Shown: in pieces, positions 4,485 through 45,883 of the stretch
How the letters are laid out: each line of letters begins with the position of its first letter
Numbering within the stretch: position 1 is the stretch's first letter
Origin: Rhodanobacter sp.
GTDB lineage: Bacteria; Pseudomonadota; Gammaproteobacteria; Xanthomonadales; Rhodanobacteraceae
Assembly (NCBI GenBank): GCA_004298505.1
Contig: SCRO01000056.1
Coordinates: 124,001 to 188,000, forward strand
DNA length: 64,000 bases
Direction of reading: 5' to 3'
The notes under the pieces: generated by a model
The model's input: the letters and a program-made list of their open reading frames with translations, nothing else
Database searches by the model: none
What the model was told of the DNA's origin: nothing
Made by a program: the position numbers and the translations under genes

Positions 4485-4910
4485 ATGAATATACAAACTG
4501 CCCCACTCACCATCGGTACCGTCGCCAAGCGCGTCGGCGTGGCGATCGACACGATCCGTTACTACGAGCGCGAAGGCCTGTTGCCGCAGCCACAGCGACG
4601 TGCCTCGGGCTATCGAAGTTATGGGGATGCAGCGATCGCGCAGCTGCGCTTTATCCGCCGGGCCAAGAAGCTGGGCTTCACCCTTGAGGAGATTCGGGGT
4701 CTGCTCTCACTCTCGCGTGATCGCCAGAAGGGGGTGGCTGCAGTGAAGCAGCGCGCACAGCTGCGGCTGGTGGCGCTGGATGCGCGCATTGCCGAGTTGC
4801 AGCGTGTGCGCGATGGGCTAGCGCAACTGGTGAAGTCCTGTCGCGGCCACGGCGCACCCGAGCATTGCCCGATCCTGCAGGCGCTGACCCAAGAGGAGAT
4901 GTCATCATGA
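4485..4910 (+). CDS. CueR-like MerR-family metal regulator
   Basis: A 141-residue MerR-family activator: the winged helix [21 protein letters not shown] is followed by [24 protein letters not shown] and a coiled dimerisation helix. The C-terminal loop has two cysteines (C-x8-C in [13 protein letters not shown]), the position of the metal ligands in CueR/ZntR-type sensors. It is the first gene after a MerR-type promoter and its stop overlaps the start of the P1B ATPase (ATGA), so it is autoregulated and co-transcribed. Monovalent copper or silver is the likely inducer, inferred from the CPC-type ATPase; the loop is one residue longer than in E. coli CueR. Confidence 0.85.
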
Positions 4911-18865: not shown

Positions 18866-20218
18866 TCACGGCAGCATGGACTCGATATCCGAGGCGGCGG
18901 TCGGATAGGCGAAGATCGCGTGGCGGATCGCGTCAGCTCCGAGTCCGCTGCGCATGGCAAAGCCAAACAGGTTGATCACCTCGGCGGCATCCGGTCCGAT
19001 CAGATGGGCACCGAGGATGCGCCCGCTGCCTTCCTCCACCAGCACCTTGTAGCCATAGCACGGCTCGTTGACGCGGCGCGCGGTGAACCAGCCGGGTACG
19101 CTAGCGTGGCTGACCTTGTAGTGCAGGCCGCGTGTTTGGGCTTCGGCTTCGAGCAGGCCGACGCGAGCCAGCACCGGCAGCGTGAACACGGCGCTGGGGA
19201 TACCGGTGTAATCCACCGTGGCGTGCTTGTCGTGCAGCAGGTTGTCGACCACGGCGTGGGCTTCCAGCGCCGCTACCGGGGTCAGCGGCAGCGGGCCGCC
19301 GGCAGCGTCGCCGGCGGCGTACACCGACGGGTTTGTCGTGCTGTGAAAATGCTGGTCCAGCGTGAGCCGGCCGTTGTCGTGGGCGATACCCGCGGTATCG
19401 AGATCCAGCGCTTGCAGCGCCGGCTTGCGGCCGCCGCTGTGGATGGCCAGATCGGTGCCGATGACCACCCGGCCGCCCGGCCCTTCGGCCTCCACTTCGA
19501 ACCCGGTGTCGGTCTTGCGCACCGCCTTGACCTCGTGGCCGAGCTTGATGTCTACGCCCAGTGCGCGGGTGCGTTCGAGCAGCAGCCTGACCAGATCCGG
19601 ATCGAAGCCGGCCAACGGATGCGCGCTGCGGTTGAGCAGGGTGACGTTCACACCGGCACGCGCCGCAATGTGGGCAAACTCGAAGCCGATGTAGCCGCCG
19701 CCGACCAGAATGATGCTCCGGGGTAGCGCTTCGAGCTGCAGGAAGTCATCGCTTAGCGCCAGATGCTCGGAACCTTCGATCGGCAGCGTGACCGGCTCGG
19801 CACCGGCGGCAATGACGATGTGTTTTGCCGCAAGCGTTCTGCCCTCAACCAGCACACTGTTGGGGCCGCTGAACCGCGCACGTCCATGAAAGGCCTCGAT
19901 GCCCTGTTTGGCATAGGCCTGTTCGCGATGCCCGGGCACCGGATCAGTGAAGCTGCGCTTGTGCTTTTGCAGCGCAGCCCAGTCGATCGAGACGCTACCG
20001 AGCACGCCCTTGCTCGCCATGCGCTGGGCGCCGTCGATCACCTCGGTGGCGGCGATCAGCATCTTCTTCGGGTCGCAGCCGCGCAATGCGCAGGTGCCGC
20101 CGAACGGCCGATGGTCAATGACGGCCACCGACCAGCCGGCTTTGCGGCAGTTGAAAGCAGTGACGTTGGCGGCGGTGCCGCTGCCGATGACGATGAGGTC
20201 GTAGCTTGATGAGGTCAT
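18866..20218 (-). CDS. Glutathione-reductase-like pyridine nucleotide-disulphide oxidoreductase
   Basis: A 450-residue FAD/NAD(P)H enzyme. IVIGSGTAANVTAF is the FAD-binding loop, GGTCALRGCDPKK the redox-active disulphide (C-x4-C), IILVGGGYIGFEFAHIAARA the NAD(P)H fold, YAAGDAAGGPLPLTPVA the second FAD motif, and the dimerisation domain follows. It lacks the extra Cys pair at the C-terminus that defines MerA, so it is not a mercuric reductase. In the mer operon it may regenerate low-molecular-weight thiols that carry Hg(II). The start at 20218 (MTSSSYD) follows GGAG. Confidence 0.88.
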   Translation of the reverse strand: MTSSSYDLIVIGSGTAANVTAFNCRKAGWSVAVIDHRPFGGTCALRGCDPKKMLIAATEVIDGAQRMASKGVLGSVSIDWAALQKHKRSFTDPVPGHREQAYAKQGIEAFHGRARFSGPNSVLVEGRTLAAKHIVIAAGAEPVTLPIEGSEHLALSDDFLQLEALPRSIILVGGGYIGFEFAHIAARAGVNVTLLNRSAHPLAGFDPDLVRLLLERTRALGVDIKLGHEVKAVRKTDTGFEVEAEGPGGRVVIGTDLAIHSGGRKPALQALDLDTAGIAHDNGRLTLDQHFHSTTNPSVYAAGDAAGGPLPLTPVAALEAHAVVDNLLHDKHATVDYTGIPSAVFTLPVLARVGLLEAEAQTRGLHYKVSHASVPGWFTARRVNEPCYGYKVLVEEGSGRILGAHLIGPDAAEVINLFGFAMRSGLGADAIRHAIFAYPTAASDIESMLP

Positions 20219-20630: not shown

Positions 20631-22322
<1,692 letters not shown>

Positions 22323-22473: not shown

Positions 22474-22559
22474 AGGCAGCACAGGCAAGTTGGGCCTTGC
22501 AGGTCTTACTGACGAATACGCAGAACGGCATACTCGACTCTGACTGACTGGCAGCGACA

Positions 22560-22688
22560 GGACATAGCTGGCCTGATCGCCGAACCCGCACTGGCCAGCG
22601 TGGGAAAACAGTGCACGCGGGCCACCGCCGACATCACGCTGCCGATCAGGCCGGTCGTGTTGGCCAACCGGGTCGGTACGGCTTTCAC
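22560..22688 (-). pseudogene. merC remnant
   Basis: Beginning at a GTG that overlaps the merP stop, about 40 codons read LANTTGLIGSVMSAVARVHC then FPTLASAGSAI, matching the first helix of MerC except that the first cysteine of the Cys-x2-Cys region is lost. Homology then ends. It marks the original order merT-merP-merC-merA. Confidence 0.6.
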
Positions 22689-22969
22689 TGATGCGCCGCC
22701 TTGGACGGATAACCGGCATCGGTGGTGGCCTTTTCCAGCGCCGCGAGGTTGGTCTTCGCATCGTCATAGCGCACGGTAGCCAGGCGCTTGGGGAAGTCCA
22801 CCTGCACACCCTGCACGCCCTGCACGCGCTTGAGCGCGGTCGTCACCGTTACCGGGCAGGCCGCGCAGGTCATGCCAGGCACTTCCAGCGTGGCAGTCTT
22901 TTCGGCGGCGGACGCCGGCAGTGTGAACAGCAGCGACAGCGGCAAGAAGGCGAAGGCAAGTTTCTTCAT
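22685..22969 (-). CDS. merP: Periplasmic mercury-binding protein
   Basis: 94 residues: signal peptide (FAFLPLSLLFTLPASAAE) and one heavy-metal-associated domain with GMTCAACPVTV. It scavenges Hg(II) in the periplasm and passes it to MerT. It starts at 22969 behind a GGGTTAATCC spacer, 135 bp after merT. The CAAC sequence is the canonical MerP metal site. Confidence 0.95.
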   Translation of the reverse strand: MKKLAFAFLPLSLLFTLPASAAEKTATLEVPGMTCAACPVTVTTALKRVQGVQGVQVDFPKRLATVRYDDAKTNLAALEKATTDAGYPSKAAHQ

Positions 22970-23104
22970 GGGGTTAATCCTCTCGGGGGGTGTTTCGGCA
23001 TAAACAGCAGTACGGTAGCAGCAGCACGAAAAGCACATCTGCGATGGCGAATAGCTAACGAGTCGCGCTTCCTCGAATTCATCCGGACCAGCATCGCAAG
23101 ACAC

Positions 23105-23485
23105 TCAGTAGAACAGTGGCATCACATAGGGAAAGCCCAGCGCAACCAATATCAGCGCAACGACGATCCAGAAGATGATCTTGTAGGCCTTGCGCACCTG
23201 TGCAACGGCGCATACTTCGCCGGGCTTGCACGCCGTCACTGGCCGGAAAATCCGCCGATACGCAAAAAACATCGCCAGCAGCGCCACACCGATGAAGATC
23301 GGTCGGTACGGCTCCAGTGCGGTGAGGTTGCCGATCCACGCGCCGGAGAAGCCCAGCGCGACCAGCAATAACGGCCCTAGACAGCAGGTAGAGGCAAGAA
23401 TCGCCGCCAGTGCACCAGCGAACAGCGCCCCGCGACTACCTTTGCGCGATGCAGAAAGATCTGGTTGCATCGATGTTCCGGACAT
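23105..23485 (-). CDS. merT: Mercuric transport protein
   Basis: 126 residues, three transmembrane helices. STCCLGPLLLVALGFSGAWI holds the first-helix vicinal cysteines; the second pair lies in the cytoplasmic loop (ACKPGEVCAVAQV). It imports Hg(II) received from MerP. ATG at 23485 or 23470 are both possible. It is the first gene behind the mer promoter at 23518-23548. It is nearly identical in domain order to the second copy at 45519. Confidence 0.95.
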   Translation of the reverse strand: MSGTSMQPDLSASRKGSRGALFAGALAAILASTCCLGPLLLVALGFSGAWIGNLTALEPYRPIFIGVALLAMFFAYRRIFRPVTACKPGEVCAVAQVRKAYKIIFWIVVALILVALGFPYVMPLFY

Positions 23486-23517
23486 GGGGCACCTTGGAAT
23501 ATGAATCGTTGCCAGCG

Positions 23518-23548
23518 ATCTTATGGCCGTACCTAAGTACGGAGTCAA
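23518..23548 (-). promoter_or_regulatory. MerR-type mer promoter/operator of operon 1
   Basis: On the minus strand TTGACT (23548-23543) and TAAGAT (23523-23518) are exactly 19 bp apart; the spacer starts with the dyad CCGTAC-ttag-GTACGG. This is the canonical MerR operator layout. Confidence 0.93.
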
Positions 23549-23753
23549 GCCATGACTCCTACCCGCCTTGAACTGACCCGTACCACGTCGGGACTATCCG
23601 CTTTCACTAACGTTGCAACACGCTACTGGAAGCGAAGCGAAGTGCCGCCATTGTCCTGAGTTGCAAGACGCTTGGCGTTTCGGATGTAACGCACCGCTCT
23701 TCTGTGGATACCTGTCGCGCCGAACAACCTGTGCAGGTGCTTGGCATGCAAGC
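23549..23753. other. Divergent mer control region without merR
   Basis: Where merR would be expected no regulator gene is present. I see only a short minus-strand reading without recognisable homology. The two mer promoters here point outwards from this 205-bp stretch. Confidence 0.5.
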
Positions 23754-23784
23754 TTGACACCGTACCAAAGTACGGAGCAATGGT
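23754..23784 (+). promoter_or_regulatory. MerR-type promoter of the MNIO operon
   Basis: TTGACA (23754-23759), a 19-bp spacer with the perfect dyad CCGTAC-caaa-GTACGG (23760-23775), then a weak -10 AATGGT (23779-23784). The spacing and dyad match the mer promoters in this window. The first start codon with a good ribosome-binding site lies 41 bp downstream of the -10. Confidence 0.88.
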
Positions 23785-23824
23785 TGCTCCAACCGAGGGA
23801 ATCCCGACTTGGAGGTAAAGGTTA

Positions 23825-23914
23825 ATGTCGACATATGTATTACACACCCCGGATGAACCGATGGCGCACGCTTGCCGCAAAACCTCCCAAAATGTCTACT
23901 GGAATATTGACTGA
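23825..23914 (+). CDS. 29-residue peptide at the head of the MNIO operon
   Basis: A short open frame starting MSTYVLHTPDEPMAHACRKT with one cysteine (Cys17). A near-perfect GGAGG (23811-23815) sits 9 nt before the ATG, and the TGA overlaps the next ATG (TGATG), so translation of the next gene is probably coupled. I know no family for it. It could be a RiPP precursor for the MNIO enzyme, which modifies cysteine or asparagine residues in peptides, or merely a leader peptide. The strong ribosome site and position behind the mer box are seen; the role is inference. Confidence 0.5.
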   Translation: MSTYVLHTPDEPMAHACRKTSQNVYWNID

Positions 23915-24240
23915 TGAACGTATCCGCGTTGCACTTCGCGGTGGGATCCAGACAACCACTGGTTTTACCATCCCTGGTGACAGGGGGTGCTTGGGAATGG
24001 CGCAACGGTCACGTGGCAAGCGCAGGTGCGCCCCATGCCTGCAAGATCGGCGCCCTGCCGGGAGCCAATCTCCCTCGGATGGGCCAGCGCATAGTGAACG
24101 GCGCAACGCCGAGTGTGGCCGCCGCTGGCGTGTTCTTCGGCATGGCGCAACGCACAGGTGCCCTGCGCAATTTTTGGGCACACTCGGACGGCGATCCGGA
24201 TTTCCTGCACGAGTGCCTGGATGCGCCATGTTTGGTCTAG
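23914..24240 (+). CDS. 108-residue protein before the MNIO gene; candidate precursor
   Basis: Starts on the TGATG coupling junction and ends 13 bp inside the MNIO gene. Its third codon positions are GC-rich in the second half, as expected of real coding sequence here. It has three cysteines (43, 101, 106), the last two in a C-terminal segment FLHECLDAPCLV, and no membrane helix or clear signal peptide. MNIO operons normally have a Cys-containing precursor gene directly upstream of the enzyme, so this is the positional candidate. I do not recognise a DUF2282-like bufferin precursor in it. It could be a non-precursor accessory protein. Confidence 0.5.
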   Translation: MNVSALHFAVGSRQPLVLPSLVTGGAWEWRNGHVASAGAPHACKIGALPGANLPRMGQRIVNGATPSVAAAGVFFGMAQRTGALRNFWAHSDGDPDFLHECLDAPCLV

Positions 24241-25040
24241 GCTTGCGCCCTCCTTTCCATGACGCTGCCATGCACGGCCAGGTACCGGTGGACTTCTTTG
24301 AAGCGATCACCGAAAACTTCATGGTCGATGGTGGGCGACCGCTTCAGGTATTGGAGTCGGTCCGCAGCCACTACCCTATCGCGTTGCACGGGGTATCGCT
24401 GAATCTCGGCGGCAGCGACGAACTGGATACTCATTATATCGCGAGGTTGAAAAGCCTGATCGAACGTTTCGAGCCGCAGTGGGTGTCCGATCATCTGTGC
24501 TGGAGCAAGCACCGAGGTCATCACTTCCATGAGCTGCTGCCGCTGCCCTTTGATGAGGACACCGTGCGACACGTGGCGGCCCGCATCGCCCGCGTTCAGG
24601 ACATCCTGCAGCGACGCATCCTGATTGAAAACGTCTCCAGTTACGTCGAGTTCACGCCGCACGGCATGCGTGAATGGGAATTTCTCATTGCCGTGGCCGA
24701 GCGAGCGGACTGCCGGATCCTGCTCGATCTCGACAATATCGTAGTCAACGCATACAACCACAAGTTTGACGCCTTTGAGTACGTCGCTGCCATCCCGGCG
24801 CCACTGGTCGCGCAGCACCATCTGGCGGGACACGACAGGTCAGGATCGTTCCTGATCGATAGCCACGACCAACCCGTATCCGCCGAGGTCTGGGATCTTT
24901 ATCGGTGGGCTCACATGCGCTTCGGCACGCTCCCGTTGCTGCTCGAACGGGACGACCAAATCCCGCCGCTCGAGTCCCTCCTGCTTGAGCTGGAGAGTGC
25001 GCGAGAGATCGCCTACCATGAAGAGGACCTCTGGGCATGA
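24228..25040 (+). CDS. MNIO enzyme (DUF692, BufB/MbnB-like)
   Basis: A 270-residue TIM-barrel of the multinuclear non-heme iron-dependent oxidative enzymes. The typical motifs occur in order: GLGLRPPFHDAA, FFEAITENFMVDGGRPL, ALHGVSLNLG (metal His), WVSDHLCWS, FHELLPLPF, ILIENVSSYVEF, DLDNIVVNAYNH, HHLAGHDRSG, DSHDQPV and LLERDDQIP. Family members modify peptide cysteines or asparagines into oxazolone/thioamide, thiazole-like or related groups that bind metals. ATG 24228 begins exactly at the conserved N-terminus. The gene is coupled to the DUF2063 partner by ATGA. Transcription from a mer box suggests mercury induction. Confidence 0.93.
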   Translation: MFGLGLRPPFHDAAMHGQVPVDFFEAITENFMVDGGRPLQVLESVRSHYPIALHGVSLNLGGSDELDTHYIARLKSLIERFEPQWVSDHLCWSKHRGHHFHELLPLPFDEDTVRHVAARIARVQDILQRRILIENVSSYVEFTPHGMREWEFLIAVAERADCRILLDLDNIVVNAYNHKFDAFEYVAAIPAPLVAQHHLAGHDRSGSFLIDSHDQPVSAEVWDLYRWAHMRFGTLPLLLERDDQIPPLESLLLELESAREIAYHEEDLWA

Positions 25041-25819
25041 GCAGCGCTCTGAACCGGTATCAAGATGCATTTGTCGCCTGGCTGCAAGTCGGGCCGTGCC
25101 AGCGCATAGAGGGAACGACGGTCTGCCGTGCCGAGGCGGATCGCATCGATGCCGGCCTTGCGATCTATCGAGACGCCTATACCTCGCGCCTGGTCCGCTC
25201 ACTCAGCCACGATTTTCCGGTGTCAACGCGCACTCTGGGGGAGCCGGGCTTTGCCGAGTTGGCCCGGCACTATGTCAACGATCATCCTTTCGAAAAGCCC
25301 GATATCCACGACGTGGGCGCACGCTTCCCTGCCTGGTTGTCCGTGCATGCGGGACAGCCCCATGGCGACCTGGCTGCGATCGAATGGGCCGTGTTGCATG
25401 CGTCGACCAGTACCGATGCCAAACCGGTAGCCGTTGATGATCCCGACTGGCGTGATCCCGCCAGATGGCCCGCATGGTGTCCCACGTTCGTGCCTTCCCT
25501 GAGTTTGCTGGGTCTGCGCAGCAATGCGGCACAGGTCTGGCTGCAGCATCCGGGACAAAAGTTAGCCAACCTTGAGCCTTCGGGCGAAGCCCATGTTGTG
25601 GTCTGGCGCAGGGAGCTAACGCCACGACTGTGCGTGGTGGAGCGCCCGCACTTTCTTGTGCTGCAGGCGTTGGAGAAAGGGCAGCGTCTTGCCGATGTCT
25701 GCGAACAGCTGCGTTACTGGCTACTTGACGACGATATTCGCCACCATGTCGCGGCAACCATTCATCGTGGACTTGAAGCAGCGTGGTTTGCGGAAACGGT
25801 AATTCCGAACGCCCATTGA
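25037..25819 (+). CDS. DUF2063 partner protein (BufC/HvfC-like)
   Basis: 260 residues. The N-terminal DUF2063 domain is clear: RYQDAFVAWLQ, GLAIYRDAYTSRLVRSLSHD, FPVSTRTLGEPGFAELARHY and HDVGARFPAWL. Such proteins accompany MNIO enzymes and help recognise the precursor peptide. The C-terminal part (VWRRELTPRLCVVERPHFLV and the following helices) resembles the winged-helix-like region also seen in this group. The ATG overlaps the MNIO stop. Confidence 0.9.
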   Translation: MSSALNRYQDAFVAWLQVGPCQRIEGTTVCRAEADRIDAGLAIYRDAYTSRLVRSLSHDFPVSTRTLGEPGFAELARHYVNDHPFEKPDIHDVGARFPAWLSVHAGQPHGDLAAIEWAVLHASTSTDAKPVAVDDPDWRDPARWPAWCPTFVPSLSLLGLRSNAAQVWLQHPGQKLANLEPSGEAHVVVWRRELTPRLCVVERPHFLVLQALEKGQRLADVCEQLRYWLLDDDIRHHVAATIHRGLEAAWFAETVIPNAH

Positions 25820-26020
25820 AGAACTGAGCAACGACTGACCTGCCAAGCCGGTTCTTGAACGTGAGCAATAAACAGCGGCGAGGGCCAACCGGGTGCTGTG
25901 CCCCATTCGTGCGACACCCGGTACCGCTCGTGGCGTTCAGTCGACGTCATGGCGGTTCAACGCCAGCCGCCGCCACCCGGGCCTTGCGCTGGGCATCGTG
26001 GGTGGGGACCAAATCAATAC
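25820..26020. other. Intergenic, no supported gene
   Basis: A spacer between the MNIO operon and the next mer box. A weak open frame from 25855 has no homology I can see. Confidence 0.4.
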
Positions 26021-26051
26021 TTGAACCCGTACCTCAGTACGGACCCAAGCT
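26021..26051 (+). promoter_or_regulatory. MerR-type promoter of the merF-like gene
   Basis: TTGAAC (26021-26026), 19-bp spacer beginning with the perfect dyad CCGTAC-ctca-GTACGG (26027-26042), then CAAGCT (26046-26051) as a weak -10. It is the same architecture as the merT and MNIO promoters. Confidence 0.85.
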
Positions 26052-26086
26052 TGCCGATACCCAATCCATGATCGAGGTGCCGTGAG

Positions 26087-26338
26087 ATGAATGAAGACAA
26101 GAGTGGTTGGTGGGCGGGTATCGCTGCCGCGGCGGCCCTGTCGCTGTGCTGCGGCCTGCCCCTGTTGGTGGCTGCATTCGGTGCCGGCGCCATCGCCGCC
26201 ATTGCCAAATTCGGGTTCGCAGGTTTGTTGGTCGCAGGTGGATTGGGCGTAGCCATCTACCTGTGGGTCCATGCAAAACGTCGGCGCAGCTGTGAAAGCT
26301 GCGTGTCAGCCCCACGACAGACGCCCAAGGGCCCCTGA
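26087..26338 (+). CDS. MerF-like mercury transporter
   Basis: 83 residues with two transmembrane helices. The first contains vicinal cysteines (ALSLCCGLPLLVAAFG) and the cytoplasmic tail has a second thiol pair (RRRSCESCVSAP), the arrangement of MerF (81 residues). It would move Hg(II) across the inner membrane. It stands alone behind its own mer-type promoter, apart from both mer operons, and directly follows the MNIO operon. Confidence 0.8.
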   Translation: MNEDKSGWWAGIAAAAALSLCCGLPLLVAAFGAGAIAAIAKFGFAGLLVAGGLGVAIYLWVHAKRRRSCESCVSAPRQTPKGP

Positions 26339-26685
26339 TCGCGATGCGACACGGTAAAACGAACCGCGCCGCACCTGGACGCCAACCCGCCGCACCGGTC
26401 AATCCAGTGCGTCCTGCGCACAGGTCGCGCTGGCTGTCCAGGTGGCGGCTGCCACGCCGCACACCGGCGCGCTCAGCAGCACGCCACAGTTCGTCAGCCG
26501 CCTGGGCTGGCAGCAAGGCCATGTAGTGGTGATGCTGCGCCACATTTCCAACGGCAGCACGCACGAACCCTGCTACGGTGAATCGATGTTGCTGCTTGGG
26601 ATAGGATTCTGAAGCGCGTGGATCAGCATCGGCAGATCAAAGACCTTGGGGTACGCTCAAATCCAGCTTGGCAAGAGTATCCGGC
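26339..26685. other. Intergenic with a possible decayed minus-strand gene
   Basis: No supported plus-strand gene. On the minus strand AVGNVAQHHHYMALLPAQAADEL (read around 26500-26560) looks like real protein sequence but lacks an intact continuation; I cannot name the family. Confidence 0.35.
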
Positions 26686-27801
26686 ATGTCCCTGACCCCT
26701 ATGATCGAAGTCAAACCAGGCGCCAGCGGCTACACGGTGCGACTCACCGGGCCCTGGAATCTCAAGGCGCTCAGGTCCGACTTCACAGCGCTGCGCGAGG
26801 AGCTGGCTGCGTTGGCCTGCGATCGCAGCTGTCGTTGGGATCTGCAGGAGATCAGCGCGCTGGACAGCATCGGTGCGTTCCTGATCTGGCAGGCGTGGAA
26901 CCGCTGCCTGCCGTCCGACGTCAGCATGCCCGAACACTATCGCACGCTGTTCCGGCAGTGGACCGGGCAGCCACCTTTGCCGCCGGTATCGCGCCGCCCC
27001 TTGCCATCGTTCACGACCGCGATCGGTCGCCGGATGTTCATCGCACTGGACCATCTGCGCGCTGCCCTGATTGAACTCGGCCAGCTGACACTGGATACGT
27101 TCCATGTGCTGCGCCATCCGGCGCGTACACCGTGGCGGGAAATTTCCGCGACGATCTACGAGAGCGGCGTCCGGGCGCTGCTCATCACCGGGTTGGTCGG
27201 TCTGCTGATCGGTGTCGTCGTCAGCTATCTGTCGGCCATCGAGCTGCGTAGCTACGGCGCACAGCTCTACGTCATCGACATCCTCGGGCTTGGCATTATC
27301 CGCGAACTCGGGCCGATGCTCGCCGCGATCCTGGTCGCCGGCCGCTCCGGTTCCTCGATGACCGCGCAACTGGGAGTGATGTGGGTAACCCAGGAACTCG
27401 ATGCGCTGACCGCGATGGGGATCTCGCCCACCCTGCGTCTGGTGCTGCCCATGGTGGCAGCCTTGCTGATCGTCATGCCACTGCTGGTGGTCTGGACCGA
27501 CGCCCTCGCCCTGGTCGGCGGCATGCTCGCCGTCAAGCTCGAACTCGGCATCGCGTATTCGCAGTTCCTGCGGGCGCTACCGAGTGCCGTGCCGCTGGTC
27601 AACGTCTGGATCGGCGTGGGCAAGGGCGCAGTATTCGGGGTGCTGGTGGCGCTGACCGCAGCGCATTTCGGGCTGCGCATCGAACCCAACACGCGCAGCC
27701 TGGGCGTGGAAACCACCAACTCGGTGGTCTCTTCCATTACGTTGGTGATCGTGGTCGATGCCGTATTTGCCATACTGCTGCAGAACGTGGGGATGGGATG
27801 A
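26686..27801 (+). CDS. MlaE-type permease with N-terminal STAS domain
   Basis: 371 residues. Residues about 1-95 form a STAS domain (YTVRLTGPWNLKAL, RWDLQEISALDSIGAFLIWQ) and the rest an MlaE/YrbE permease (GLLIGVVVSYLSAIELRSYG, GIIRELGPMLAAILVAGRSGSSMTAQLG, MGISPTLRLVLP). In E. coli the STAS protein MlaB is separate, so this is a fusion form. With the following ATPase, MCE protein and lipoprotein it forms a phospholipid or lipophile transporter across the envelope. ATG 26686 is chosen; a TTG 18 bp upstream is possible. Confidence 0.9.
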   Translation: MSLTPMIEVKPGASGYTVRLTGPWNLKALRSDFTALREELAALACDRSCRWDLQEISALDSIGAFLIWQAWNRCLPSDVSMPEHYRTLFRQWTGQPPLPPVSRRPLPSFTTAIGRRMFIALDHLRAALIELGQLTLDTFHVLRHPARTPWREISATIYESGVRALLITGLVGLLIGVVVSYLSAIELRSYGAQLYVIDILGLGIIRELGPMLAAILVAGRSGSSMTAQLGVMWVTQELDALTAMGISPTLRLVLPMVAALLIVMPLLVVWTDALALVGGMLAVKLELGIAYSQFLRALPSAVPLVNVWIGVGKGAVFGVLVALTAAHFGLRIEPNTRSLGVETTNSVVSSITLVIVVDAVFAILLQNVGMG

Positions 27802-28577
27802 ACAACACCGACTGCATCATTTGTCTCGAACACGTGGATACGCGCTTTGGCGGGCAGGTCATCCACCACGACCTCAATCTGTGCGTGCACCGAGGCGAGA
27901 TCCTGGCCCTGGTGGGTGGCTCCGGCAGCGGCAAGACCACCCTCCTGCGCGAAATGATCGGGCTGCAGGCACCGACTGCAGGCTGTGTCACCGTCGACGG
28001 CCAGCAGTTGGCGCAGAGCGACGCCTACACCCAGCAGTGCCTGCGCGAACGATGCGGCGTGCTGTTTCAGGGCGGCGCGTTGTTCAGCGCACTGAACGTG
28101 TTCGACAACGTCGCGTTGCCGCTGCGCGAACTGGATTTGCTGGATCAGTCGCTGATCGCGCAGCTGGTATGCCACAAACTGGCCATGGTCGGCTTGGACA
28201 CGGCGGTGGCGCACCGGATGCCATCGGAGCTTTCCGGTGGCATGGTCAAGCGCGTCGGTCTGGCCCGTGCGCTGGCGCTGGAGCCGGAGTTCCTGTTTCT
28301 CGATGAGCCAACCTCAGGCCTGGATCCGGTTGCCGGTCAGCAGTTCGTGGAGCTGATTCGGCAGCTGCACCGGGAACTCGGGTTTACCGTCGTGCTGGTC
28401 ACGCACGATCTCGATACCATGGTTGACCTGGCCGATCGCATCGCGGTGCTGGCCGATCAACACATCGTCGCGCTCGGCCGCTTGAACGAGGTGATCGCCC
28501 GCGACCACCCCTTCGTTCATGATTTCTTTGGTGGCACCCGCGGTCAACGGGCGCTGGCGGCACAGGAGGCACGCTGA
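27798..28577 (+). CDS. MlaF-type ABC ATPase
   Basis: 259 residues. Walker [32 protein letters not shown] (typical MlaF Q-loop region), signature LSGGMVKRVGLARAL, Walker B LFLDEPTSGLD and VVLVTHDLDTM. ATGA overlap with the permease stop and 2-bp spacing to the MCE gene show a tight operon. Confidence 0.93.
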   Translation: MNNTDCIICLEHVDTRFGGQVIHHDLNLCVHRGEILALVGGSGSGKTTLLREMIGLQAPTAGCVTVDGQQLAQSDAYTQQCLRERCGVLFQGGALFSALNVFDNVALPLRELDLLDQSLIAQLVCHKLAMVGLDTAVAHRMPSELSGGMVKRVGLARALALEPEFLFLDEPTSGLDPVAGQQFVELIRQLHRELGFTVVLVTHDLDTMVDLADRIAVLADQHIVALGRLNEVIARDHPFVHDFFGGTRGQRALAAQEAR

Positions 28578-28579
28578 TC

Positions 28580-29488
28580 ATGGGCAACAAGGCTTACGCA
28601 CTGGCCACCGGCATCTTTGTTGCCATCCTCGCCGCCGCGCTGATCGCTGGCGCGACATGGCTGTCCGGCTATCACGTCGAACGTACCCCCTATGTGCTGG
28701 TATCACACAGTTCGGTGTCCGGCCTGAGCCTACAGTCGACCGTCTACTATCGCGGCGTGCCGGTAGGCACGGTCGATTCCATCCGTTTCGATCCGCGGCA
28801 CTTCGGCACGATTCTGGTGCGCGTGCAAATCGATCCCGAGGTGCCGATCACGCCCGGCAGCTATGGCACGCTGACGCCGCAGGGCGTCACCGGCCTGACC
28901 GTCGTCGAGCTCGATGACGACGGCAAAGCGTCCAGGTTGCTGGCAACCTCGGCGCAGGCACCCGCGCACATCCCGCTGCGCCCGTCGCTACTGGGCATCC
29001 TGGTTGATTCCGGGCACGGGCTGATCGATCGCCTGTCACAGCTGACGAAAGACCTCGACCAGCTGACCAACGCCGACAATCGTGGCCATGTCACACGGAT
29101 TCTCGCCAACGTCGAGACCGCGACCGGCAAGCTGGCGACGCTCGAGACACGACTGAGTGCGACCTTGTCCACCCTGCCTGCGGTCAGCCGCGAGGCGCGT
29201 CGTACGCTCGCGGACATCGACACCGCGGCGCAGCAGTTGCAGGGGCTGAGCCGCTCGCTGGATCAGTTTGCACGTAGCGCCACCCAACTCAGCCAGACCG
29301 GCAACACCGCCGGCATCAAGCTGCGTGACACCACCTTGCCCCAGCTCAACCATCTGCTGATGCAGATGAGCGTCGCCACCGATCGCCTGCAGCGGCTGAC
29401 CGACAACTTGCAGCAGGATCCGCAAAGCCTGCTCTACGGCCGTCAAACGCCTCCGCCAGGACCCGGTGAGCCGGGTTACAGGAAATGA
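28580..29488 (+). CDS. MCE-domain substrate-binding protein (MlaD-like)
   Basis: 302 residues: one N-terminal membrane anchor (ALATGIFVAILAAALIAGATWL), one MCE domain (SVSGLSLQSTVYYRGVPVGTVDSIRF, GSYGTLTPQGVTGLTVVELDD) and a long C-terminal helical region rich in Leu heptads (about 150-280) that may form the periplasmic coil seen in PqiB-like proteins. It anchors in the inner membrane and contacts lipids. Confidence 0.92.
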   Translation: MGNKAYALATGIFVAILAAALIAGATWLSGYHVERTPYVLVSHSSVSGLSLQSTVYYRGVPVGTVDSIRFDPRHFGTILVRVQIDPEVPITPGSYGTLTPQGVTGLTVVELDDDGKASRLLATSAQAPAHIPLRPSLLGILVDSGHGLIDRLSQLTKDLDQLTNADNRGHVTRILANVETATGKLATLETRLSATLSTLPAVSREARRTLADIDTAAQQLQGLSRSLDQFARSATQLSQTGNTAGIKLRDTTLPQLNHLLMQMSVATDRLQRLTDNLQQDPQSLLYGRQTPPPGPGEPGYRK

Positions 29489-30072
29489 TCATGCGCCTCT
29501 GGCTCAGCTATCTGCTCCTCCCGATCGTCCTCCTCGCTTTGAGCGGCTGTGGTTTGCTGCCACCACACGCTGCCCCGCCTCGATACCACGACTTCGGACC
29601 ACCCGTCACAGGGCAGCCAGCGAACGCGGGCCTGTATTTGCGCGAGGTCACTGCCCCCGCCTGGCTCGACAGCGGAGAAATCCAGTACCGACTGCTGATG
29701 ACGGATTCGACCCAGCTGCGGGCCTATGCCACTGCCCGCTGGATCGCTGCACCCTCCAGGCTGTTGGCACAACGACTGCGCGAACAGTTGCCTGGCACCG
29801 GCTCGCCGCACTACGGGTTGCGCGTTGAATTGGAACGGTTTGAACAGGACTTCGACACGCCTGACCATGCGCGCGCGGTCATGCAGCTCCATGCCGTGAT
29901 CACCGCCGCGGATGGCACGACGCTGGCAGCACATGATTTCACGTTCTCGACACCGACGCCGCCGGATGTTGCCGGCGCCATAACCGGGCTGGCGGCATTG
30001 GCACAGCAGGCCACCGAAGCCATTCTCGCCTGGTCAGCCAGCGTATCGCCGGAGGCAATGCATGGTACCTGA
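29485..30072 (+). CDS. PqiC/ABC-type transport auxiliary lipoprotein
   Basis: 195 residues with a type II signal (LLALSGCGLL) and the ABC-transport auxiliary domain (PANAGLYLREVTAPAWLDSGEI, YRLLMTDSTQLRAYATARWI, LRVELERFEQDFD). Such outer-membrane lipoproteins complete MCE transporters. It is coupled to the MCE gene by ATGA and ends the operon. Confidence 0.9.
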   Translation: MIMRLWLSYLLLPIVLLALSGCGLLPPHAAPPRYHDFGPPVTGQPANAGLYLREVTAPAWLDSGEIQYRLLMTDSTQLRAYATARWIAAPSRLLAQRLREQLPGTGSPHYGLRVELERFEQDFDTPDHARAVMQLHAVITAADGTTLAAHDFTFSTPTPPDVAGAITGLAALAQQATEAILAWSASVSPEAMHGT

Positions 30073-30468: not shown

Positions 30469-31023
30469 TTAGCCGGATCCTGTATGGACGTTGGGTGCCC
30501 AGCGGCAGCAAGTTCCGGCGATCACGCGGCGCGCGTTCAGGTAAAGCGCCAGGGCAGTCAACGCCAGTGCCGCGAGTAGCAACCAGACCTCGTGGGTGGC
30601 GATGAAGCCCTGCACACGGCCACCAGCGGCGCTCGCGAGTGCCGGGAAAGTCACCGCCAGCGAGCCCAGGGCCAAGGGCAGGATCGGGCTGCAACACAAC
30701 AATGGTGTGATCAGTGCTACCAAGCCCCCCAGCAGGCCGCCAGTGGCGGCACTTTTGCTGGTACGCTGGCCTTGACGAACGATGCGTACCATCAGCGCCA
30801 CGGTCAGCGCCAGCAAAAGCGCCAATGCGAGCGCGATGAAGCCCAGTTCGGGCGTGAGCAGACGCAGGCTGACCCAGCCGATGCGCCCCCCGGTCAACGA
30901 AGCCGGCAAGGTGGCGGCATAAAGCGGCAACAATATTGCGAAGCTCACGCCGGCAGCCCAACGGCAGGCTTTCTCCTGCCAGGCCAGTTTGAGCGCCGTG
31001 AAGATCAGGCTCATCGGCTTCAA
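30469..31023 (-). CDS. Membrane protein with LLCCSP motif
   Basis: 184 residues, about five hydrophobic segments. The central helix GGLVALITPLLCCSPILPLA contains vicinal cysteines in a setting similar to mercury-transport proteins, and a second CC pair lies near the C-terminus (VIAGTCCRWAP). The second half (LLCCSPxLP, QGFIxxHE, ALYLNARR) is shared with the 96-residue protein at 60347-60637. The gene overlaps the upstream TlpA-like gene, suggesting that thiol redox chemistry and this transporter act together. Family unknown to me. Confidence 0.75.
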   Translation of the reverse strand: MKPMSLIFTALKLAWQEKACRWAAGVSFAILLPLYAATLPASLTGGRIGWVSLRLLTPELGFIALALALLLALTVALMVRIVRQGQRTSKSAATGGLLGGLVALITPLLCCSPILPLALGSLAVTFPALASAAGGRVQGFIATHEVWLLLAALALTALALYLNARRVIAGTCCRWAPNVHTGSG

Positions 31024-31553
31024 TTTCTACCAGCAAAACGGAGGATTGTGTCCATCGTGGCCGACGGCGCACCATCGACAGCCTGGACGCGGCCGTTGGC
31101 GTCGATCAGGAAATAGATATCCGGATAATGTTTATGGTTGTAAGCGGAATCGAGCTGCAGCGAGGCATCGCCAAACACCCAACCCGGCTGCCGCAACAAC
31201 GTGGGCGCAACCCGATCGACGAACTTGCGGATAGCCGGACCCGGGTAACCGCCATTCTGGTAGTTGCGCAAGATGACGACACGCAAACCGGATTTTTCGA
31301 GTGGACCGGCCTTGTCGGCCATTGTTTGCAGACCGGCCGCGCAGCTCCCGCACCAGGTGGACAGCAGCCATAACATGGTCCGATGACCTTTGAATTGTGC
31401 CGTCGACAGCGTGCGACCGCCGGCCGTGGTGTAGGGCACGACTGGCGCCAGCGGCGGGGTAGCAGCGATCGCGGAAACGCTGGCGAGCGATACCGCCATG
31501 ACCAGTCCCACGACCAGTGAGCATGTACGGTTACGGCATTTCTTGAATTGCAT
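31020..31553 (-). CDS. TlpA-like periplasmic thioredoxin
   Basis: 177 residues with an N-terminal signal/anchor (LVVGLVMAVSLASVSAIAA) and a thioredoxin fold: FKGHRTMLWLLSTWCGSCAA has the W-C-x2-C active site. The later PDIYFLIDANGRVQAVDGAP is the typical TlpA strand region. It likely reduces or shuttles thiols in the periplasm, perhaps keeping the CC membrane partner reduced. The start at 31553 gives the signal peptide; the open frame is longer. Confidence 0.82.
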   Translation of the reverse strand: MQFKKCRNRTCSLVVGLVMAVSLASVSAIAATPPLAPVVPYTTAGGRTLSTAQFKGHRTMLWLLSTWCGSCAAGLQTMADKAGPLEKSGLRVVILRNYQNGGYPGPAIRKFVDRVAPTLLRQPGWVFGDASLQLDSAYNHKHYPDIYFLIDANGRVQAVDGAPSATMDTILRFAGRN

Positions 31554-31685
31554 GGCTATGGCCTTTTGTACGGAGGCGTCGGCGTGATAAACCCACGAAC
31601 GTCCGGCGGAACGGCGTCCTCGCACCGCCCGCAGTTGCGCCGACGTCGGGTTCGAAGCAGCCAGTAAGCGCCACCACACGAGCTA

Positions 31686-31845
31686 AGTTCAGATCTGGTG
31701 TATGGGTTCAGGCGGCGCGCTACGGTCAAATCTGGTGTATGCGGGTCAGGCGGCGATCCTGTCTGGCTGATCGGTTAATAGCTCTCCGTTCCGGAACTTG
31801 ACGTTGTTGACGACCCGTTTCAGTTGGTTGAAGCCCTTGATACGT
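31686..31845 (-). pseudogene. IS256-family transposase C-terminal remnant
   Basis: The minus frame reads [20 protein letters not shown] then RNGELL and a stop at 31748-31750, matching the end of IS256-type transposases (W+R+KG-NQL-KVI-GVKF-DG). A CATACACCAGAT motif occurs twice after it, like an element end. The fragment replaces the natural end of merR. Confidence 0.6.
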
Positions 31846-32260
31846 TTCCAATATCCGCTTCCTGCAACGAGGCGATCAGCGGACAGGAAACACTGCCCGT
31901 ATGGGTATGGCATGCATGCACAAGTTGAGACAACACCACCTCCATGCGCCGGAGATCGGACAGTTTCTCGCGGACGCTGGCCAACTTGTGCTCAGCCAAG
32001 TGGCTTGCTTCTGCACAGTGCACACTGTCCTCCAACCTGAGCAGGTCGGCGACTTCATTCAGGCTGAAACCGAGCCGCTGCGCCGATTTCACAAAGCGCA
32101 CCCGCGCGACATCGGCCTCACTATAACGACGGATACTGCCGTAAACCCGGTCCGGCTCGGCCAGCAGCCGTTTGCGCTGGTAGAAACGAATGGTCTCGAC
32201 ATTGACCATCGCCGCTTTCGCGAGCGCGCCGATGGTGAAACTTTTTGACGTCTTATCCAT
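31820..32260 (-). CDS. merR: Mercury-responsive regulator MerR, altered C-terminus
   Basis: 146 residues. Winged helix: [20 protein letters not shown], then [20 protein letters not shown]. The three mercury-binding cysteines are all present ([27 protein letters not shown]). After SLQEAD the last ten residues derive from an inserted IS256 fragment, beyond the metal site, so function is probably kept. It is the only complete Hg-type MerR in the window and would serve the scattered mer boxes; it is located 8-14 kb from the nearest ones. Confidence 0.92.
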
Positions 32261-38685: not shown

Positions 38686-41600
38686 TCAGGACGCTTCCCC
38701 ACTCCCCTTTTCCTCGGAATTGCGTCGCCCGGGGAGCCAGACGTCGTCAAGATAGAAACGGCGCAGAAAGGTCACAAAATCGTCCATCAGCGAATAAGCG
38801 ACCGGGATGGCAATCAGCGTCATCATCGTGGAGGTCACCAGCCCGCCCATGACGGCGGTGGCGATCTCCTTGAATTGCTCGGTCGCCGGTGGTGGCCAGA
38901 TCGCGACAGGCAACATGGCGATGCCGGCGGCAATCGCAGTCATCAGCACCGGCCGCATGCGCTGGGCGCTGGCGGCGACAATGGCGTGATCGCGATCCGC
39001 CCCGCGGCGGCGGAAATGCAGCATCAGATCCACCATCAGGATCGAATTGGACAGCACGATGCCGGCAAGGATGACCATGCCCCAGAGCACCGGCGGCGAC
39101 CAGTTCATGTCGCGCAGCCACAGCGCACCGATGCCGCCCAGCCCTTCCAGCGGGATCGCCAGCATCAACACGAGCGCCGTGCTGAACGAACGGAACTGTA
39201 TTATCAGCAGGAAAAGCACCGCGACCAATGCCACCTTGAGCCCGGAATTAAGCTCATTGAAGGCTTGCAGCATGGTGCCCATCAAACCTGCCGGGCCGAT
39301 CGAGTAGCCCTTGGGCATGGAAAATTGCATCTTGGCCGGCACCAGCAGGTTCATGGTGGTCTCCTTGAGACCGAGCTCCTGGTAATAACCAAGCACGCTG
39401 GCGGCATACAGCGTGTTGTAGGTGTGGATCGTGTTGAATCCGACGCTGTCGCGAACGCGCGCTACCGCGCTCAGCGGTACCACGCGACCCTTCGGCGTGG
39501 CGATCTTGAGGTCGCGCAAATCTTGCAGGGATCGCCGCTGACCCTTCCGATAGCGGATCAGGATGCGGCTGTGGTAGTCCATCGGCTGCGGGTTGAAGAA
39601 GGTTCCGGTCATCCCGCCATTGATCGCGTAATAAACCTGCCCCACCACATCCTTGACGCGCAAGCCCATGGTCATGGCGCGTGCCTGGTCAACATCGACC
39701 TCGAGCTGCGGCACGCCATAGATCGTATCCAGGTAGGGATTGTGCAGACCTTTGGCCTGGGTCTTGGCGATCTGCAGGACCTGGTGACCGTAGTCATAGA
39801 CCTGCTGCATGTTGGGGCCCTTGATCAGCACCTCGACCGGCGCACGCGATGCTGCGATCGGCGTGGGGCTGAGCGGCCGCAGGAAAAGCACGTCGAGATC
39901 CGGGATCTCGGCCTTGGCCTTGCGATAGATGGCATCCTGGATCTGCCACTGTGTTTGCTGGCGTTGTTCGCGGGCGATGGTCAGATTCATCAGCAGCCGT
40001 GCTTCATTGACCTCGTTGACGCCGTAACCAGTGAAATACTGCCCCCAGACGGGGGATTGCCCGGTCAGCGCCGAAACGTCCTTGACGTTCTTCTGCTCCA
40101 TGGCGATGTGTTCGATCTTTTTGACGATCTGTGCCATGCGTTCGGTGCTGACGCCCGGACTGGCGCGCACGTAACCCAAGACCACCGACGTATCGGTCAG
40201 CGGCATTTGTTCGACACCGAGTTTGTCAAACAGGGTGAGCGCCATCATCAGCGAGCCGACGATGCCGGCCACCACGATCCAGCGGTGGTGCAACGACCAC
40301 GCCACCCAGCGCATGAAGGCCTGCTCGAAGGTGTGGAAATGGCGCAGGAATACCTTGTGCATCACCCGGCCAATCCAGCCCGGCGGCGGCTCCGACTCGA
40401 GCTTCATCTCCTCTTCCAGCGGGACTTCCACTTCTTCGGTAATGGCAATTGCGCCCGGCTTGGGCTTGAACAGCACCGAGGCCATCAACGGGGTGATGGT
40501 CATGGCGAGGAAATAGGATCCAATCACCGAGGTGATCATCGGCACCGTCATACTATAGAAACCTGCACCCATATCACCGGTCAGCTGGGTCATCGGATAC
40601 AGCATGACGGCAAACGTCAAGGTGGCCGCCAGGATCGCGTTCTGCACCTGTTCGGCGCCCAGCACCGCCGCCACCTTGGGGTGGAAGCCGCGCTCGATAT
40701 GTCTTCGCACCACCTCCACCACCACGATGGAGTCGTCGAGCAGTTTGCCGACCACGAACACCAGACCCATCATGATGCCGAAGTCACGCTGCACACCGAG
40801 CATATAGACGAGGAAAAAACCGAACGCAACCGCCGAAGGCAGGATCGCGGCAGCGATCACCGTGCCGCCCAACTCACCAAGGAACAGCACGATCACCAGG
40901 CTCGCCAGCAGTACCGCCTTGATGAACTCCTCCATCGCGTTGGCGTCGTTGAGGTGGATATAGAACGCCTGGTCGAAAGCGGTCTGCACCTTGAGCCCGG
41001 GATATTCGGCCTCCAGCTTGTGCGCCAGCTTGGTCGCGTTTTCCGAGATCTTCAGGAAATCGCCATCGTTCTGACCCTGAACTCCAAGCCAGATAGCGGG
41101 TTTACCGTTGTAGTAGAAATCGCCGTAGAGCGGTGCATGGGTATCCGCAATCTTCGCCACATCACGCAGGTAGATTACCTGGCCGCCCTTGTGACCCACC
41201 GGCAGATCCCTGAGCCGCTGCAGCGTTTGTGGCTCCTCGAACTCGCTGTTGATCTGCACGTCGATGCGGTTGTCGCCATCGACCAAGGGGCCGCCGCCAT
41301 GATTGAAATTGGCGCTGTCGATGGCCTTCCCGATGGCCAGAATGCTCAGGCCATGGGCAGCGAGCTTGGCGCGATCGACCTCGACCTGGATCTGGCGCGT
41401 GGGTCCACCAAAGGTGCTGGCGGACAGCACCCCCGGCTGCAGTTGGAACTGGGTGAGGATGACGTTGTTCACCAGCTCCTTGAGCGCGGTGCGACTCATG
41501 CCCGGGCGCGTGATGGCGAACTGGATGGACGGCCCATTCTGGCTGTTGACGTGGACCAGTCGCGGCTTGGTGGTATTGGGCCCCGCCTGCGGCAGTTCGT

Positions 41601-41982
41601 TGCTGATCTCGTTCAACAACGCTTGCATTTCAAGTTGTTTCTTCTGCAGATCCACGTCGTAGTCGAAATACACCACGATCTTGGAATAGCCGGACTGCGA
41701 TGTGCCCAGCAGGTAGCTCACTCCGCCGACGATCTGGATGCGCTTTTCCAGCGGGTTGGTGATGTAGCGCTGCATGTCTTCGGCCGACATGCCGGGGAAT
41801 TGGGTCACCACGCCGACATTCGGGCTGGGGATCTTGGGTACCATGCGCGCCGGAATCGCGAGGTACGCATAGACCCCCAGGATCACCATGATCAACGCGA
41901 TGATGATCGTGGCATGCGGGTGACTCAGTGCGAAGCGCGGCAGGCTGAAGCGCCGCCCGCCGTTCGGCTGCCGGGCGTTCAT
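38686..41982 (-). CDS. RND efflux pump, inner-membrane subunit
   Basis: 1098 residues, the AcrB-type topology: helix 1 (HATIIIALIMVILGVYAYLA), two large periplasmic loops, helices 2-6 with KLLDDSIVVVEVVRRHIERG, a cytoplasmic insert rich in Glu (about 500-540), and a mirrored second half ending PVLMTAIAAGIAMLPVA. TM4 has D-D-S rather than the D-x3-D-x5-E signature of CzcA heavy-metal pumps, so by motif it is closer to hydrophobe/uncharacterised RND pumps. It sits with an adaptor and a TolC-type channel behind a MerR-type promoter. Confidence 0.93.
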   Translation of the reverse strand: MNARQPNGGRRFSLPRFALSHPHATIIIALIMVILGVYAYLAIPARMVPKIPSPNVGVVTQFPGMSAEDMQRYITNPLEKRIQIVGGVSYLLGTSQSGYSKIVVYFDYDVDLQKKQLEMQALLNEISNELPQAGPNTTKPRLVHVNSQNGPSIQFAITRPGMSRTALKELVNNVILTQFQLQPGVLSASTFGGPTRQIQVEVDRAKLAAHGLSILAIGKAIDSANFNHGGGPLVDGDNRIDVQINSEFEEPQTLQRLRDLPVGHKGGQVIYLRDVAKIADTHAPLYGDFYYNGKPAIWLGVQGQNDGDFLKISENATKLAHKLEAEYPGLKVQTAFDQAFYIHLNDANAMEEFIKAVLLASLVIVLFLGELGGTVIAAAILPSAVAFGFFLVYMLGVQRDFGIMMGLVFVVGKLLDDSIVVVEVVRRHIERGFHPKVAAVLGAEQVQNAILAATLTFAVMLYPMTQLTGDMGAGFYSMTVPMITSVIGSYFLAMTITPLMASVLFKPKPGAIAITEEVEVPLEEEMKLESEPPPGWIGRVMHKVFLRHFHTFEQAFMRWVAWSLHHRWIVVAGIVGSLMMALTLFDKLGVEQMPLTDTSVVLGYVRASPGVSTERMAQIVKKIEHIAMEQKNVKDVSALTGQSPVWGQYFTGYGVNEVNEARLLMNLTIAREQRQQTQWQIQDAIYRKAKAEIPDLDVLFLRPLSPTPIAASRAPVEVLIKGPNMQQVYDYGHQVLQIAKTQAKGLHNPYLDTIYGVPQLEVDVDQARAMTMGLRVKDVVGQVYYAINGGMTGTFFNPQPMDYHSRILIRYRKGQRRSLQDLRDLKIATPKGRVVPLSAVARVRDSVGFNTIHTYNTLYAASVLGYYQELGLKETTMNLLVPAKMQFSMPKGYSIGPAGLMGTMLQAFNELNSGLKVALVAVLFLLIIQFRSFSTALVLMLAIPLEGLGGIGALWLRDMNWSPPVLWGMVILAGIVLSNSILMVDLMLHFRRRGADRDHAIVAASAQRMRPVLMTAIAAGIAMLPVAIWPPPATEQFKEIATAVMGGLVTSTMMTLIAIPVAYSLMDDFVTFLRRFYLDDVWLPGRRNSEEKGSGEAS

Positions 41983-43298: not shown

Positions 43299-43317
43299 GA
43301 AATGACTCCCTGGAAAA

Positions 43318-44883: not shown

Positions 44884-45076
44884 GCTGGGTTCCAAGCCGC
44901 GCGCGTCGTTCGGACGGCCAGGTTCGGATGGCTCGAAGGTCACATGGTGCCGTTTCAAATCCGAGATACGCGGCGAACCAGTGAATCCCACCGATCTGAA
45001 ACGCCCCATCGTTACGCCACACTTTTTCATGCTTGCGAGATCCGTTCCAAGTGAGCTCAAATCACTGTGGAGGACA

Positions 45077-45107
45077 TTTGTACTCCCGTACGCAAGTACG
45101 GTTTCAA
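45077..45107 (-). promoter_or_regulatory. MerR-type promoter of the RND efflux operon
   Basis: On the minus strand TTGAAA (45107-45102), 19-bp spacer with the perfect dyad CCGTAC-ttgc-GTACGG, then TACAAA (45082-45077). The layout equals the mer promoters and directs transcription into the TolC-family gene about 190 bp away. Confidence 0.88.
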
Positions 45108-45440: not shown

Positions 45441-45471
45441 TTGACCCCGTACTGTGGTACGTCTCTAGGGT
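45441..45471 (+). promoter_or_regulatory. MerR-type mer promoter of operon 2
   Basis: TTGACC (45441-45446), 19-bp spacer with dyad CCGTAC-tgtg-GTACGT (one mismatch), then TAGGGT (45466-45471). It drives the second merT. Confidence 0.88.
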
Positions 45472-45869: not shown

Positions 45870-45883
45870 TCCGGAGCTCTCCC

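Follow-up and report, generated by a model that had tools for sequence, protein, structure and literature searches.

Bufferins are known mainly for copper. In the available part of PMC13097082, all characterised cases in which an MNIO enzyme works with a PME-type-1 partner install 5-thiooxazole. The accessible portion of a second paper (PMC12452194) ties PME-type-1 partners to precursors with a Sec signal, deals with precursors that have no MNIO gene beside them, and refers to bufferin operons induced by gold. It also describes the chimaeras MerC|Buf1 and MerC|Buf2, which occur in mercury-detoxification clusters and whose bufferin domain is predicted to lie on the periplasmic side. No other description of a mercury-linked MNIO was found in the open-access papers searched. 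We analysed a stretch of 64,000 nucleotides from Rhodanobacter sp. (assembly GCA_004298505.1, contig SCRO01000056.1, positions 124,001 to 188,000 of the forward strand), referred to as the window, which holds an MNIO gene and its DUF2063 partner behind a MerR-type promoter. A preliminary description of this DNA had called such chemistry described for copper, which is mainly so and yet too narrow, given the mercury-cluster chimaeras and the gold-induced operons. Judged from the sequence, the pair is probably an Hg(II)-controlled bufferin-type maturation unit that came from a type of mer operon with a MerC-tethered Buf2 domain, and whose precursor has since been remodelled.

The promoter and the genes behind it are as follows (ORF, open reading frame).

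23754..23784, + strand: mer box, a MerR-type promoter (-35 TTGACA, -10 AATGGT), from the sequence and a strict scan against a null
23811..23816, + strand: Shine-Dalgarno sequence GGAGGT, 8 nt ahead of the ORF29 ATG at 23825, from the sequence
23825..23914, + strand: ORF29, 29 codons, one Cys, at most a coupling or leader ORF, no family match
23914..24240, + strand: ORF108, 108 codons, Cys 43, 101 and 106, matched by a MerC|Buf2 fusion profile
24228..25040, + strand: MNIO enzyme of the BufB type, in the mer-linked Buf2 clade, from PF05114, NF050167 and the tree
25037..25819, + strand: DUF2063 partner (PME type 1), 260 aa, PF09836 at 64 bits

ORF29 and ORF108 meet in TGATG, ORF108 and the MNIO gene overlap by 13 nt, and the MNIO and DUF2063 genes by 4 nt. 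The ribosome site and the overlap make up the support for ORF29, and neither it nor ORF108 has a Pfam or NCBIfam match. No Rfam RNA element was found in 22500-26700.

The promoter reads TTGACA-CCGTACCAAAGTACGGAGC-AATGGT, and its 19-bp spacer encloses the dyad CCGTAC-CAAA-GTACGG. Five strict boxes of this kind were found in the window, at 23548(-), 23754(+), 26021(+), 45107(-) and 45441(+), far above chance: base composition leads one to expect about 0.07 per window, and 60 first-order Markov sequences gave a mean of 0.02 and a maximum of 1. The dyads of three of the five (23754, 26021 and 45107) are readable on the opposite strand too. A weaker mer-type site at 32272, its dyad having up to 2 mismatches, adjoins the merR gene of the window, so that a merR gene and the dyad in a 19-bp spacer, the sequence marks of a MerR regulon, occur together. 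Another MerR-family regulator at 4485-7468 (+) (TIGR02051 118 bits, below cut-off) adjoins a P-type ATPase that we take to be of the copper type, the two possibly forming a copper set within this island. If the operon were a copper system merely located in a mer island, its promoter-like site would be fortuitous or would serve another MerR-family regulator; the neighbouring set fits this, as does the generally copper-binding character of the characterised bufferin-type products in the available part of PMC13097082. We hold this to be very improbable, since the 23754 box resembles those of merT and of a MerF-like gene and lies far above chance, and since the sister enzymes described below sit inside mer operons.

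The MNIO reaches 342 bits against PF05114 (cut-off 25) and 349 bits against the NCBIfam BufB model NF050167 (cut-off 310), and the PF09836 partner gene follows it directly, as in bufferin systems. Extending the MNIO frame upstream (401 open codons from 23835) was rejected because the extension has a codon score of -61 bits and homologues begin near 24228. All nine iron ligands are kept (H54, H89, E134, D167, N170, H198, D211, H213 and E240), their positions having been mapped by eye on TglH via a structure-database alignment; the TglH ligands, as listed in the available part of PMC10880893, are H71, H107, E151, D184, N187, H216, D229, H231 and E258. Family and iron ligands are thus shared with methanobactin MbnBC and with TglHI, but the sequence relation is distant (PDB matches E 2e-6 to 5e-16) and the substrates differ. 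With bufferins 1 and 2, or captophorins, in the accessible portions of PMC12452194 and PMC13097082, the window shares an MNIO over the BufB cut-off and a PME-type-1 partner; it differs in having a mer box, where the former paper gives sigma/anti-sigma genes for Buf1 clusters, and in having no recognisable precursor core. The preliminary description had already recognised the MerR-type promoter with its 19-bp spacer and dyad, the ribosome site, the 29- and 108-codon ORFs with one and three Cys, their coupling by overlaps, and the MNIO and DUF2063 pair, and all of these are borne out.

The relatives of the enzyme tie it to mercury resistance. Within the family (233 genomes, 169 with a match including its own) the nearest MNIOs are 49-55% identical to it. 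Across the class, where 222 of the 369 genomes searched had a match, the three closest enzymes are those of G491 (61%, loci L091/L123), G429 (61%, L092/L124) and G287 (58%, L095/L120), and it is these three that are mer-linked. Together with the window enzyme the MNIOs of L120, L123 and L124 form one group with support of 100/100 in a 62-row tree (IQ-TREE, PMSF). When the L124 MNIO was searched against the phylum (95 of 289 genomes matched), no listed match exceeded 55% identity apart from the window enzyme. Only three loci, at 44-53%, were found in the named GTDB genomes, two of which entered the tree, and the viral contigs held no relative.

The three sister loci are built alike. On one strand, L120 has a mer box, merT, merP, merA, a thioredoxin-like gene, a membrane protein gene, a MerC|Buf2 fusion, an FAD oxidoreductase, the MNIO and DUF2063. 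L123 (its fusion sequence read from L091, the same relative) has a mer box, merA, a MerC|Buf2 ORF, the MNIO and DUF2063. L124 runs from merT, merP and merA through thioredoxin-like and membrane genes to a MerC|Buf2 fusion, a free Buf2, the MNIO, DUF2063 and a MerR-family gene, followed by a gene that we take to be merB-like. The free Buf2 precursor of L124 (9573-9995) stands directly after the fusion in the same mer operon, and one MNIO may therefore serve two substrates. merA and MerC occur in all three sisters and merT with merP in two (L120 and L124); the MerA of the window is 58-59% identical to theirs. The sisters carry the MerC|Buf2 fusion itself, like the chimaeras in the available part of PMC12452194.

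Such surroundings were not found around other near relatives. No MerT or MerC match at E 1e-8 was seen in the 41 of 55 other loci that were checked, with flanks of up to 8 kb a side, some of them limited by contig ends and three shorter than 7 kb. Four of these 41 gave matches to MerA at 31-33%, which we read as generic flavoproteins. Eleven of the loci from the phylum-wide search had no MerT, MerA or MerC match within 1.5 kb.

The kinship of ORF108 became visible only once the MerC|Buf2 sister operons had been found. Before that, ORF108 had been considered as a wholly new protein, and searches yielded no convincing relative. In the 233 family genomes these gave its own copy and one weak match (E 9e-4) antisense to another gene, presumably fumarylacetoacetase-like; in the GTDB 220 collection, 24 pattern matches and no relative; and in 72,556 plasmids, nothing. 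At the DNA level, the matches in 36 family genomes besides its own were 23-86 nt long, with a best E of 2e-4, and were read as chance. Against a profile of the three fusions ORF108 then scored E = 4.1e-6 among 581 window segments, ranking second to the MerC of the window (1.4e-38); the segment in third place stood at 0.06. When the profile was limited to the middle (the fourth MerC helix, the linker and the helix ahead of the bufferin core), E was 5.4e-7, the next unrelated window segment standing at 0.045. None of 9,641 null segments reached that score; these were of 60-400 residues and came from the fetched loci, 11 loci with a fusion or a copy of the window being excluded and 155 scored segments with the six-cysteine signature dropped, and since the loci overlap the segments are not independent. 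The best-scoring of them resemble real MerC proteins. In pairwise comparison with the L120 and L123 fusions, none of 3,000 shuffles reached the score of ORF108. The alignment with the fusions covers residues 5-84 in blastp and residues 19-82 in the profile search. The C-terminal 24 residues, with two Cys and the tail HECLDAPCLV, have no alignment to the fusion core, and ORF108 has neither the MerC head nor the six-cysteine core.

By these matches ORF108 belongs with the middle of the MerC|Buf2 fusion as a diverged relative, and is not a new family. The preliminary description had spoken of two unknown small genes and had favoured a new substrate. For ORF108 neither is supported, its relatives being found in the mer-linked MNIO neighbourhoods and its cysteine core being absent; ORF29 matched nothing. 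The overall interpretation is supported for the mercury-type control and for a bufferin-type pair with relatives in mer operons, and is not supported for the two unknown genes or for a new substrate as the first choice. A 38-nt direct repeat lies inside ORF108 (23987-24024 / 24132-24169, 76% identical, its copies offset by 145 nt, which is not divisible by three) and is possibly a trace of rearrangement or chance.

The cysteine core of a precursor is missing from the window. A six-cysteine Buf2 signature lies within 600 nt upstream of the MNIO in 53 of the 58 nearest MNIO loci opened, comprising 29/29 in the family and 24/29 class-wide (the others being L095, L098, L102, L111 and L117), and there is none within that distance of the window MNIO. 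Directly upstream of it, where a Buf1 or Buf2 cysteine-core precursor would stand, only the pre-Buf2 middle remains. The Buf2 profile found no Buf2 core in the assembled genome at E up to 10, in a search without a positive control, and the L120 fusion protein found none at E up to 0.001. In the window the profile touches ORF108 only at a signal-like stretch (residues 56-79; eighth among 728 window segments, at E 1.9), and an eroded Buf2 core in another frame was looked for and not seen. A DUF2282 (Buf1) precursor is likewise absent from the window, as had been stated before; the assembly has two over the cut-off, one of them behind its own mer box.

What surrounds the operon, listed below, recalls the sisters.

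18866..20218, - strand: FAD oxidoreductase, a 63% relative of which follows the MerC|Buf2 fusion and precedes the MNIO in L120
20258..20641, - strand: MerC, tail-less, by family match, sharing 45-49% identity with the MerC portion of the L120 fusion
20631..22319, - strand: merA, by family matches
22685..22969, - strand: merP, by family matches
23105..23548, - strand: merT, by family matches, with the true start within this ORF
23518..23548, - strand: mer box of the divergent merT-merP-merA, by strict scan
26021..26051, + strand: mer box ahead of the MerF-like gene, by strict scan
26087..26338, + strand: MerF-like small membrane protein with CC and CESC, by sub-threshold family matches only (MerF 12.6 bits, cut-off 50; MerTP 14.9 bits, cut-off 180)
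30469..31679, - strand: membrane protein and thioredoxin-like protein, of the types in L120 and L124, judged by eye on the translations
31820..32260, - strand: merR, TIGR02051 168 bits, above cut-off

The MerC of the window, not fused to a Buf2 core, stops where the bufferin tail of the L120 fusion would begin. As with the chimaeras in the accessible portion of PMC12452194, a MerC-type protein, an MNIO and a DUF2063 partner share one mer neighbourhood; unlike them, MerC is separate, the six-cysteine core is missing, the fusion is left only as ORF108, and the operon has a mer box of its own. The window genes give the impression of a single MerC|Buf2 mer operon whose parts have been rearranged into new groups. 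In this view MerC and the FAD oxidoreductase would have stayed with merTPA, the thioredoxin-like and membrane genes would have come to lie beside merR, and the MNIO and its partner would have been placed behind their own mer box, with the remains of the fusion middle as ORF108. The window copy of the mercury-linked bufferin set thus looks remodelled or relict.

In the parent form, the C-terminal, periplasmic end of MerC would bear a bufferin-2 domain with six cysteines, and Hg(II) would make MerR activate the operon. The MNIO and its partner would then oxidise cysteines of the tethered domain, probably to 5-thiooxazoles, and the soft sulphur ligands of the modified domain may hold Hg(II) or other soft metal ions at the membrane, beside the Mer transporters that feed MerA. 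The window pair, with its own mer box and intact active site, a separate tail-less MerC and a putative fusion-middle remnant, would at present be a relict, or act on the tail of ORF108, or act on a precursor elsewhere such as a bufferin on contig C126; these three are alternatives inside descent from a MerC|Buf2 mer operon.

Several observations weigh against such a descent and its mercury-linked function. No merT or merP match was found in L123, where the merA match is split over two frames, and L124 lacks a strict mer box, showing before merT no more than a degenerate dyad (up to 3 mismatches). The fusion profiles were built from three sequences; against the L124 fusion the best of 3,000 shuffles scored 60 to the 58 of ORF108 (fitted p 2e-4), composition-adjusted blastp against the fusions gave modest values (E 0.002-0.016), and the likeness of ORF108 to the MerC of the window itself is not significant (p 0.16). 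The period-3 signal of ORF108 has p = 0.11, four intergenic controls giving 0.12-0.60 and five true-gene stretches 0.001-0.036. Its composition is weakly coding-like at best: a codon score of +2.7 bits, where the other + frames lie at -39 to -62, speaks for a gene, but 33% of dinucleotide shuffles contain an open + frame of at least 108 codons. The MNIO branch measures 1.09 in the 62-row tree, where the median is 0.19, and the enzyme departs at six positions from columns that are at least 95% conserved in the 61 others, one of the departures (S59N) being common to the sisters; decay fits the long branch and these departures as well as adaptation does. Besides the copper binding mentioned above, mercury binding by such products was not seen in the literature covered.

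Some of these points bear on whether the unit is still alive. The core may have been deleted, ORF108 being a pseudogene and the MNIO pair an orphan on its way out. Three things speak for this: a Buf2 core is missing from the window and was not detected in the assembled genome, ORF108 gives a weak coding signal, and the MNIO branch is long. We consider it a serious possibility, if short of an even chance: the MNIO and its partner are full length, the iron ligands are kept and the promoter is intact.

Alternatively, ORF108, or a product from its Met56, may be translated and inserted in the membrane through the pre-Buf2 helix, leaving a two-cysteine periplasmic tail, HECLDAPC, to be modified by the MNIO. 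The layout suggests translation through ORF108, from the Shine-Dalgarno sequence over ORF29 and TGATG to the overlap with the MNIO gene; its frame has the best codon score among the + frames, the pre-Buf2 segment is kept, and the active site of the MNIO is intact despite the diverged sequence. Such a live precursor is nonetheless somewhat unlikely. The period-3 value is poor, no convincing relative of ORF108 is known from the family genomes, GTDB 220 or the plasmids, the tail cannot be aligned to the fusion core, and an AlphaFold model from the single sequence is uninformative (pLDDT 32.7). The tie of PME-type-1 partners to Sec-signal precursors in the available part of PMC12452194 also tells against it, as no such signal was recognised in ORF108, to which no signal-peptide predictor was applied. 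Quite improbable, in our estimation, is the more specific proposal that a mercury-induced MNIO shifted from a MerC-tethered six-cysteine substrate to ORF108 as a membrane-anchored mini-precursor, with the 29-residue two-cysteine tail as its core, giving a mercury-dedicated modified peptide. If true, the ORF108-derived peptide would be unlike any bufferin described in the literature covered.

The same assembly holds two further MNIOs, at C120:110660 and on contig C126. The former belongs to an ordinary bufA-bufB-bufC set, behind which stands a presumably DoxX-like gene; the stretch read there contains no mer box. C126 has a (2Fe-2S) protein gene, a mer box, a DUF2282 bufferin, an MNIO, DUF2063, a second mer box, merT and the first part of a merP-like gene. 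Over 98% of the length of this contig, plasmid NZ_CP088981 of Rhodanobacter denitrificans FW104-R5 (Tennessee) is 93% identical to it, and a second R. denitrificans plasmid matches it over the same length. The FW104-R5 plasmid carries merR, a hypothetical gene, the (2Fe-2S) gene, DUF2282, DUF692 and a DNA-binding domain protein (the DUF2063 gene), and then merT, P, C, A, D, E, a truncated haemoglobin and an FAD oxidoreductase. This cassette is like the window in having a mer box ahead of a bufferin operon beside merT, and unlike it in its intact DUF2282 precursor, its Buf1-type MNIO and its position upstream of merT in the same direction. As C126 is a 3.7-kb contig of a draft with 3.5% estimated contamination, its placement in this organism is not certain.

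The C126 layout recurs in G149 (two copies) and G159 (one copy); the G149 copies (L083 and L084) lie in opposite orientation about 0.2 Mb apart in a single-contig genome. G192 (L085) has merR, a hypothetical gene, a mer box and merT-P-A without the bufferin piece, and a second such place is indicated in that genome. L085 is an empty site, in that L083, L084, L090 and L040 differ from it by a bufferin cassette of about 2.4 kb between the hypothetical gene and the mer box of merT. Mer operons with and without the piece accord with a cassette that is gained and lost as a whole. In the stretches fetched around the bufferin sets of G128, G130, G133 and G137, neither a mer box nor a mer gene is present. 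The sister mer operons together with the C126 and plasmid cassette indicate that mercury-linked bufferin gene sets recur.

The C126 genes also raise the question of whether the window MNIO modifies a bufferin that is encoded elsewhere under mer control, for example the DUF2282 protein of C126. That contig carries bufA1-bufB-bufC between a mer box and the mer box of merT, and the accessible portion of PMC12452194 does discuss precursors without a neighbouring MNIO gene. We think such action in trans unlikely, because the C126 bufferin has its own Buf1-type MNIO, which falls in a different tree group from the window enzyme, and because of the contig's short length and the contamination estimate.

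Other genes of the island may also respond to mercury. A second mer cluster lies behind a mer box at 45441-47226 (+), with merT and merP (matches of 77% and 55%), a short protein, and a MerR-family or MerD-like gene; the short protein has only the N-terminal metal-binding domain of MerA and ends in KQLSCCAG. The box at 45107(-) heads a gene set at 38686-45107 (-) that reads away from it and that we take to encode outer-membrane, HlyD-like and RND-like efflux components, which suggests mercury-controlled RND efflux. Directly after the MerF-like gene, at 26668-30072 (+), stands what is presumably an MlaE/MlaF/MlaD-like lipid transport set.

To our knowledge, standard accounts of the mer operon describe no branch of post-translational modification. 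If descent from a MerC|Buf2 mer operon under Hg(II) control is correct, this textbook system would have such a branch. The two arrangements, a MerC|Buf2 fusion with an MNIO in mer operons and a mer-box bufferin-1 cassette before merT, make a directly testable case that MNIO-made heterocycles of thiols serve cells against mercury as well. To these the window adds a system whose precursor has seemingly been dismantled and whose enzymes have been retained.

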